Assembly (NCBI RefSeq): GCF_902810435.1
Contig: NZ_LR778174.1
Coordinates: forward strand, 1-64,000
Direction: 5' to 3'
Origin: Veillonella parvula
GTDB lineage: Bacteria > Bacillota > Negativicutes > Veillonellales > Veillonellaceae
DNA: 64,000 bases
Both the position numbers and the translations under genes were made by a program. Shown in pieces: positions 17,070 through 18,394 of the stretch. Position 1 is the stretch's first letter, and each line of letters opens with the position of its first letter. The notes beneath the pieces were generated by a model. The model made no database searches. It was given only the letters and a program-made list of their open reading frames with translations, and was not told where the DNA came from.

Positions 17070-18239
17070 ATGGAACTCATCGATACAATGTTGATTGAAC
17101 GCATTCGTAAAGCGTTAATTAAACGATATGACCGAGATCAACAGATTCAACAAATGATTGAAGAAATTGGTGCAGAGGAAGGTCTTAATGAGACCGAATT
17201 ATCTATCGTTTACCAAGCTTATTTAGAGGTAAAAGAACGGGTGTACTATACATCTTCTCTCGTTGATTTGTGGAATCAAATTGAAGATGTTCAAAAACGT
17301 ATGGCCTTATTGCATTCTTACGAATCTTTAGAAGAAGATTTATTTGGCGATGTGCTAGGCGACGATAAGGAAGATATCGTCATTTCTAATACATCTGGAC
17401 TTGGCAAGGGTGCGAGTCATAATGATGATGCATATGCTATGGAACAGGTACAATTATCTGATGTTCCTGTGCATCATGATTCTACGGTGGGCATGAACCA
17501 TATTAAATTGAACGAATTAAAATCTATAGGCGGCCTCTTTACTGGTTTTGGTGAAAGCTCCGGTAAGGAAATAGCAGATTTTGAAGATACTGCGATTGAG
17601 CACCTTGATGTAAAACCATTAGAAGGCGTTGAAAGTTTAGCAATTCATCATTTAGATGAAGATGAAGCGTTAGATGTAGATGGTCTTGATGAATTATCGA
17701 AACATAAGAAATCAGAGGCAGCTAACGTGGATGATGAGGATATGTCCTCTATCGATCCATACACGGCGGTGAATGCTTTATTATTTGGTAAAGCCGGTTT
17801 AGAGTCCGATAAAACAAATAAGAAGATGGAGAAGCTTCTTAAAAAGAAATTGAAACGCGTTGATGATGAATGGGCGCGTATCAACGGTTCTGAAGATAAG
17901 AAATCTAAGGAAGATAAAAAATCCAAGGAAGATAAAACATCTAAAGAGGATAAGAAATCCAAAGAAGACAAAAAGTCCAAAGGCGAGAAAAAATCTAAGA
18001 AAGATAAAACGTCTAAAGAAGATAAAAAAGAGAAAAAACACAAGAAGTCTAAGGAAGAAAAACGCTCTAAAGACGAAGAAAAGTTAAAGAAAAAGAAAGA
18101 CAAAGCTGAAAAGAAGCTTAAAGTCTTAAATGATAAGTTAAAAACAGTCTTCTTGGCTGATACTTTCAAGAAAAAAGATAAGAAGAAAGACAAGAAAAAG
18201 GATAAAAAATCTAAAAAGGATGAATCCGTAAAAAAGTAG
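17070..18239 (+). CDS. Unrecognised Lys-rich protein, zero-frame product
   Basis: I do not recognise this 389-residue protein. The N-terminal 110 residues look folded and helical (MELIDTMLIERIRKALIKRY, then a YLEVKERVYYTSSLVDLWNQIEDV helix). The middle (about 110-260) is acidic and irregular. The C-terminal third (about 265-389) is a highly charged low-complexity tail built from repeats such as KKSKEDKKSKED. There is no signal peptide or membrane segment. AGGAGG immediately before ATG 17070 fixes the start; an overlapping GTG at 17064 is less likely. The last codons are AAA AAG followed by TAG, and the bases at 18230-18236 form an A_AAA_AAG slippery heptamer, so a longer frameshift product is likely. 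Confidence 0.8.
   Translation: MELIDTMLIERIRKALIKRYDRDQQIQQMIEEIGAEEGLNETELSIVYQAYLEVKERVYYTSSLVDLWNQIEDVQKRMALLHSYESLEEDLFGDVLGDDKEDIVISNTSGLGKGASHNDDAYAMEQVQLSDVPVHHDSTVGMNHIKLNELKSIGGLFTGFGESSGKEIADFEDTAIEHLDVKPLEGVESLAIHHLDEDEALDVDGLDELSKHKKSEAANVDDEDMSSIDPYTAVNALLFGKAGLESDKTNKKMEKLLKKKLKRVDDEWARINGSEDKKSKEDKKSKEDKTSKEDKKSKEDKKSKGEKKSKKDKTSKEDKKEKKHKKSKEEKRSKDEEKLKKKKDKAEKKLKVLNDKLKTVFLADTFKKKDKKKDKKKDKKSKKDESVKK
18230..18236 (+). promoter_or_regulatory. Candidate -1 programmed frameshift site A_AAA_AAG
   Basis: The zero-frame codons are AAA and AAG, immediately followed by UAG, the same heptamer used by Escherichia coli dnaX. An AAGGA element lies about 10 nt upstream, where a Shine-Dalgarno-like stimulator would act. 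Small downstream hairpins (TTCC/GGAA and GGCC/GGCC arms between 18250 and 18292) could also help. A one-position slip back opens 52 further codons. Confidence 0.65.
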
Positions 18240-18394
18240 AATCGATAGTTTCCGTATGGAATAGTAAGGCCTCTGAAAAGATGGCCAAGGAGAGTGCTAG
18301 TGCGAAGAAATCAGCAAGTGCTGGGACTATCGACCGTGGATGCGGTAAATGCAAACGATGTAAAGGTCCTAAATGTAAGAAATATCCAAGTTAA
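18236..18394 (+). CDS. Cys-rich C-terminal extension reached by -1 frameshift
   Basis: In the -1 frame the sequence continues for 52 codons from GTA at 18236 to TAA at 18392-18394. It gives VESIVSVWNSKASEKMAKES, an alanine/serine/lysine stretch, and then a compact cysteine-rich end, GCGKCKRCKGPKCKKYPS, with four cysteines in CxxCxxC...C spacing. It has no start codon or ribosome-binding site of its own and continues the charged style of the upstream protein, so it reads as the true C-terminus of the long form. The cysteines could bind zinc. Alternatively a one-base indel in the A-run has truncated the gene. Confidence 0.6.
   Translation, partial: VESIVSVWNSKASEKMAKESASAKKSASAGTIDRGCGKCKRCKGPKCKKYPS

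Follow-up and report, generated by a model that had tools for sequence, protein, structure and literature searches.

A predicted programmed −1 ribosomal frameshift that would give a Lys-rich protein of Veillonella a four-cysteine end

We asked how translation of a gene for a Lys-rich protein ends in Veillonella: do all ribosomes stop at its UAG codon, or do some pass into the −1 frame and add a Cys-containing tail? The gene lies in the window (the whole 64,000-nucleotide stretch of DNA analysed here), which is the start of a single 2.15-Mb contig (genome G000), and it is present in a single copy in this genome. An earlier note on this DNA had proposed a programmed −1 frameshift, with a zero frame that ends in A_AAA_AAG and UAG, a −1 frame that continues for 52 codons and a purine-rich AAGGA about 10 nt upstream of the heptamer. 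Direct reading of the coordinates confirmed this layout, AAGGA included (Table 1). The translation of the −1 frame, also read directly, is VESIVSVWNSKASEKMAKESASAKKSASAGTIDRGCGKCKRCKGPKCKKYPS, with the C-terminal end GCGKCKRCKGPKCKKYPS. Between the N-terminal domain of ~95 residues and the Lys-rich part, the protein has an acidic, variable middle. On the opposite strand, a Ser/Leu/Phe-rich ORF of 181 aa (17648-18193, − strand) mirrors the Lys-rich coding sequence and is most likely no gene.

Table 1. Features of the locus, in window coordinates.
Feature	Position	Strand	Basis or remark
Shine-Dalgarno AGGAGG	17059..17064	+	read directly; 5 nt before ATG 17070
Zero-frame gene, 389 aa, no Cys	17070..18239	+	ATG 17070; UAG 18237-18239
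Conserved N-terminal domain, helical hairpin of residues 6-35 and 41-92	17070..17375	+	alignment A2; AlphaFold2 pLDDT 86
Lys-rich low-complexity region	17880..18236	+	Lys makes up 43% of the final 150 residues
AAGGA, Shine-Dalgarno-like element	18216..18220	+	9 nt 5' of the heptamer
Slippery heptamer A_AAA_AAG, zero-frame codons AAA AAG	18230..18236	+	A_AAA_AAG or A_AAA_AAA in phase in all 18 homologues
5' arm of the putative stimulator stem (UCGAUAGUUUC)	18242..18252	+	pairing probability ~1; compensatory changes; first strong pair 18243, 6 nt past the heptamer
3' arm of the stem (GGGACUAUCGA), codons for G-T-I-D	18323..18333	+	pairing probability; compensatory changes
−1 frame tail, 52 codons, four Cys (GCGKCKRCKGPKCKKYPS)	18236..18394	+	stop 18392-18394; pN/pS; Cys count

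How much can the heptamer of one genome tell? Extensions of the −1 frame by at least 40 codons past the stop were found in 12 of the 64 window ORFs of at least 120 codons, and among those ORFs only the gene at 17070-18239 carries A_AAA_AAR in the frame overlap. Shuffling of its synonymous codons placed a heptamer in the overlap 15% of the time (12-85% across the homologous genes), and the heptamer in one gene alone is not significant. As a Lys-rich gene forms such heptamers easily, the single-genome case is suggestive only. If six lineages are taken as independent, the product of the shuffle chances is ~1e-3. There are 26 Lys-Lys pairs in the window gene and a single A_AAA_AAR, compared to 4.5 expected (P = 0.03).

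Homologues were sought with the DNA in 14 Veillonella genomes and then with the N-terminal domain in the family, the order and a sample of the class. This recovered 21 genes, which belong to Veillonella (g1) and, within its family, to two further genera, g2 and g4; the species include V. rogosae, V. infantium, V. denticariosi and Veillonella sp. T11011-6. The class-wide search with the N-terminal domain gave nothing convincing beyond these three genera, and in the genomes searched the protein family is limited to the Veillonella family. Two weak class-wide matches to the N-terminal domain were seen in other families (G243 and G046). By eye, the weak order-wide matches in G019 and G029 are an SMC-like and a phosphoribosyltransferase-like protein, respectively, and a hit of the class-wide tail search (G090) is a chance match opposite a VirB4-like ATPase. 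In one Veillonella genome (G001, 240 contigs, completeness given as 99%), a search with the N-terminal domain and the tail found no homologue, reflecting either loss of the gene or a contig gap.

The frameshift arrangement, i.e. the heptamer together with the −1 extension, is conserved in 12 Veillonella species (the window included) and in six genomes of the sister genus g4. In all 18 genes an in-phase heptamer (A_AAA_AAG in 15, A_AAA_AAA in 3) lies inside the frame overlap, which is 16-97 nt long, and the zero-frame stop follows at the heptamer or at most three codons beyond it. The zero-frame ends are variable (KK, KKQNR, KKQKR or KKD before the stop), whereas the −1 tail is conserved. The earlier note had held that, if the A-run of most relatives were longer or shorter by one and the tail hence in frame, this would speak for a simple mutation or a sequencing error. 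We found an A-run indel that joins the tail in frame in 0 of the 18 homologous genes, and the frameshift reading stands. In three g4 genes (L046, L047 and L052, from G021, G022 and G027), two in-phase heptamers stand in tandem (CAA AAA AAG CCA AAA AAG, then the stop), and a −1 slip at either of them would lead to the same tail frame.

Is the tail a protein sequence under selection? Among the seven closest species, pN/pS was 0.35 in the tail (−1) frame, compared to values of 1.11 and 1.66 for the two remaining frames, and changes at the three codon positions of the −1 frame (94, 80 and 153) were concentrated at third positions. In the more divergent pair G021/G027 dS was 1.45 and dN 0.29, and the trend was alike in the pairs G013/G002, G021/G027, G024/G025, G022/G021 and G022/G027. 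This purifying selection in the −1 frame argues that the tail is translated. Every tail (18/18) contains exactly four Cys, spaced C-x2-C-x2-C-x4-C in Veillonella and C-x2-C-x3-C-x6-C in g4, so placed that three Cys columns align; the zero-frame products have no Cys in 15 genes (the window gene included) and one in three. The tail of L047 (G022) has an insertion of ~60 residues before the Cys motif (123 aa in total), and its −1 frame is still open.

Relatives that lack the shift are also informative. In G007 the zero frame itself ends in ...KRCVCKKKKDRCTC and in G023 in ...PCKGCKTKCNPCKKDKK, so that four Cys are in frame and no shift is needed; the G007 gene has no A_AAA_AAR over its whole length. 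The G014 gene ends in a plain Lys run with no Cys. The in-frame ends of G007 and G023 match the tails in composition and in number of Cys and align poorly with them; we call them functional counterparts of the tails, homology not being proven. The tree of the N-terminal domain is compatible either with one origin of the frameshift plus losses or with two origins.

An element that was absent from the earlier note is an RNA stem downstream of the heptamer. In the window, the two arms listed in Table 1 pair with each other, and the 3' arm is placed in the codons directly before the Cys motif. The stem starts at +6/+7, i.e. after a spacer of 5-6 nt, which fits the distance of 5-8 nt between the heptamer and published stimulators (PMC4066793). 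Among the seven closest species the core pairs begin 6 nt past the heptamer and have a probability of ~0.8-1.0, mostly >0.95, and the 110-nt segment folds better than its shuffles (z −2.6 to −4.5). Outside this group, the core probability is 0.95-1.0 in G004/G010 and 0.91-1.0 in G002. For the V. denticariosi pair the stem columns read CGAUGGUU/AACUGUCG, and double compensatory changes make them CCGUAG/CUACGG in G013/G002. In alignment A3, whose anchors (the heptamer and the Cys codons) were set by the analyst and may bias it towards the stem, 87.1% of cells were paired compared to 28-41% when the arms were slid, and four pairs were changed on both sides; none of 500 shuffles reached the stem in cells paired, in cells changed on both sides or in covariation score. 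G003 has its own 10-bp stem that starts 4 nt after the heptamer. The g4 genes have a stem CCUUGGU/ACCAAGG (88.9% paired, two double-changed pairs in four sequences), which is weaker than that of Veillonella. In G013 and G024-G026 other folds compete with the stem, which falls outside the predicted minimum. The loop or branched structure that the stem closes is variable (~70 nt in the window). In L010/L054 (G013) and L055 (G002), a possible H-type pseudoknot lies directly 3' of the heptamer, in which CCGTAG/CTACGG crosses CCACGGCC/GGCTGTGG; in G013 it would have 8 pairs, including a G-U.

Upstream of the heptamer, an SD-like stimulator at 6-17 nt is an optional criterion for a programmed −1 frameshift. 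Between −20 and −6, nine of the 12 Veillonella genes have AGGA or GGAG, compared to 3-26% of background windows, and the same search found the element missing in G008, G003 and all six g4 genes. As AAG GAT occurs often in the window gene, which is rich in Lys and Asp, AAGGA is weaker evidence than it appears.

Taken with the selection in the −1 frame, the covarying stem at the expected spacing supports the frameshift reading, and we consider it very likely that the gene uses a programmed −1 ribosomal frameshift, with a Cys-free product of 389 aa and a four-Cys product of 441 aa predicted from sequence comparison. Ribosomes would read the Lys-rich protein as far as AAA AAG, and the majority would reach UAG and release the shorter, Cys-free protein. 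A fraction would be stalled by the RNA stem ~6 nt downstream, perhaps with assistance, in most Veillonella, from the SD-like AAGGA 9 nt upstream. Both Lys-tRNAs would then slip from A_AAA_AAG to AAA_AAA (a tandem −1 slip) and translation would proceed through 52 further codons, giving the longer protein with its four Cys at the end. The occurrence of this slippage and its efficiency are what we infer from these features. The genome encodes one tRNA-Lys with the anticodon CUU and two with UUU (G000:C1:725659-725731 and tRNA clusters L128, L130 and L137). Because tRNA-Lys(CUU) is present, lower A-site slippage on AAG is expected, which counts against the frameshift; yet of 83 species with both tRNAs-Lys, 46 have IS elements that contain motifs of this kind (PMC4066793).

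Could the fusion arise without slipping ribosomes? If RNA polymerase added one A in the A-run, part of the mRNAs would encode the fusion in frame and the peptide would be identical. The site is an A-run, and two genes have long ones (nine A in G003, eight in G024). However, the run is just 6-7 A in 16 of the 18 genes, shorter than the long-run criterion of about 8-9 A, and in many genomes selection against slippage-prone A-runs typically begins near nine (PMC1088944). Slippage of the polymerase also leaves unexplained why a covarying stem lies at ribosomal spacing and why the A_AAA_AAG phase, rather than merely a long run, is conserved. Given the short runs and the unexplained stem, we regard transcriptional slippage as improbable. 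Alternatively, the tail could be an independent small ORF that has a start of its own or is reached by re-initiation past the zero-frame stop; the frames overlap like those of coupled genes, and an ATG occurs within the −1 ORF of some species. Yet the only ATG of the window's −1 ORF is codon 20 of 56, and in seven species (G011, G006, G005, G012, G013, G002 and G003) we found no ATG, GTG or TTG in the entire −1 ORF, so entry from the zero frame is the simplest route to the tail. With four-Cys ends fused in frame in two relatives as a further argument against it, an independent ORF seems very unlikely.

Homopolymer sites are error-prone, and a sequencing error, a recent indel or a decaying gene might look like a frameshift. 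But the arrangement is common to 18 assemblies from 18 species in two genera and there is purifying selection 3' of the stop, which makes this explanation hardly conceivable. Finally, the stem and the tail codons could serve the RNA in a different way, through mRNA stability or attenuation, with slippage incidental to it, since long-range pairing at the 3' end could shield the mRNA. Such a role is highly improbable: purifying selection on the tail acts at the amino-acid level, all tails keep their four Cys, and an Rfam search gave nothing near gathering scores. The programmed −1 ribosomal frameshift is thus the reading that we retain.

What might the two proteins do? The earlier note recognised no known family, and this is still so: searches of Pfam, NCBIfam, PHROGs and PDB sequences with the protein gave nothing above cut-off, and the N-terminal domain matched no Pfam family. 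Matches to EAD1, SKA2 and interferon-gamma were rejected as they had chance-level scores. An insertion sequence was rejected (no transposase domain in Pfam, PHROGs or NCBIfam, one genomic copy), as was dnaX itself (no TIGR02397 domain; the dnaX of this genome is at 1902749-1903813, outside the window). A Foldseek search of the PDB with the model of the N-terminal domain returned generic helical hairpins only (best E 0.58), and the AlphaFold2 model of the tail (pLDDT 55) was too poor for use. No signal peptide was seen by eye, and the gene neighbourhood showed no partner conserved between genera. Directly 3' of the gene, L004 (V. rogosae) and L054 (G013) have a glycosyltransferase-like gene and the window a sulfatase/LTA-synthase-like gene, so the downstream region varies between species. 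The composition of the tail suggests that its four Cys may form a Zn or other metal/thiol site, which would be confined to the shifted form. Our tentative picture, drawn from composition, is of a cytosolic protein that might dimerise via the helical hairpin and bind a polyanion (nucleic acid) via its Lys-rich part. It would be made in two forms in a fixed proportion, one that has the metal (Zn) or thiol site and one that lacks it.

The predicted frameshift falls in an unnamed protein family, and its mechanism belongs to a class that is already known. Its comparative support is unusually complete, with the heptamer, its phase, a covarying stem, a selected tail and unshifted relatives, and two predicted isoforms that differ only by a four-Cys tail offer a first handle on an uncharacterised family. 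Gene finders stop at UAG, and the tail is for this reason probably missing from protein databases. Veillonella, the host of the gene, is a human commensal with working genetics. A wider reading, possible but rather doubtful, is that in this Veillonellaceae-specific family frameshifting decides the presence of the protein's only metal/thiol site and that evolution moved between constitutive and frameshift-gated forms, as suggested by the in-frame four-Cys ends of the relatives. If this is true, the frameshift efficiency might depend on how much lysine tRNA is supplied, on the load of ribosomes or on the state of the metal, and would act as a regulated switch.

Finally, we compared the locus with known systems. 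Conserved cases of frameshifting in non-mobile genes are few (PMC5009743). The evidence is of the same kind as for the GeneTack clusters (Antonov et al. 2013, PMC3711429), namely an A-rich heptamer at a frame transition that is conserved; Veillonella does not appear in the main text of that study, and a literature search found no paper that describes the gene or frameshifting in Veillonella. E. coli copA (PMC5009743) is likewise a chromosomal, non-mobile gene with a −1 frameshift product linked to metal handling, but it shifts early to give a short product of 70 aa and encodes an unrelated protein. The earlier note had drawn a parallel with dnaX. E. coli dnaX (tau/gamma) shares A_AAA_AAG, a stem a few nt downstream, a non-mobile chromosomal location and, with most of the Veillonella genes, an SD-like element upstream; it encodes an unrelated protein, however, and differs from Veillonella, where the stem encloses a loop or branched structure that is variable. 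The dnaX gene of the window genome (L147) has no in-phase A_AAA_AAR heptamer, so that the dnaX-type frameshift at A_AAA_AAR is unused there. The outcome also differs: the shift in dnaX gives the shorter product and that in the Veillonella gene would give the longer one. IS3-family elements (IS911, IS3) have A_AAA_AAG, an SD-like upstream element, a branched stem or pseudoknot and a longer fusion that results from the shift, while the Veillonella gene is not mobile, has no transposase and is single-copy. Because its shifted product would be the longer one, the predicted outcome in Veillonella is nearer to the IS3 family than to dnaX.
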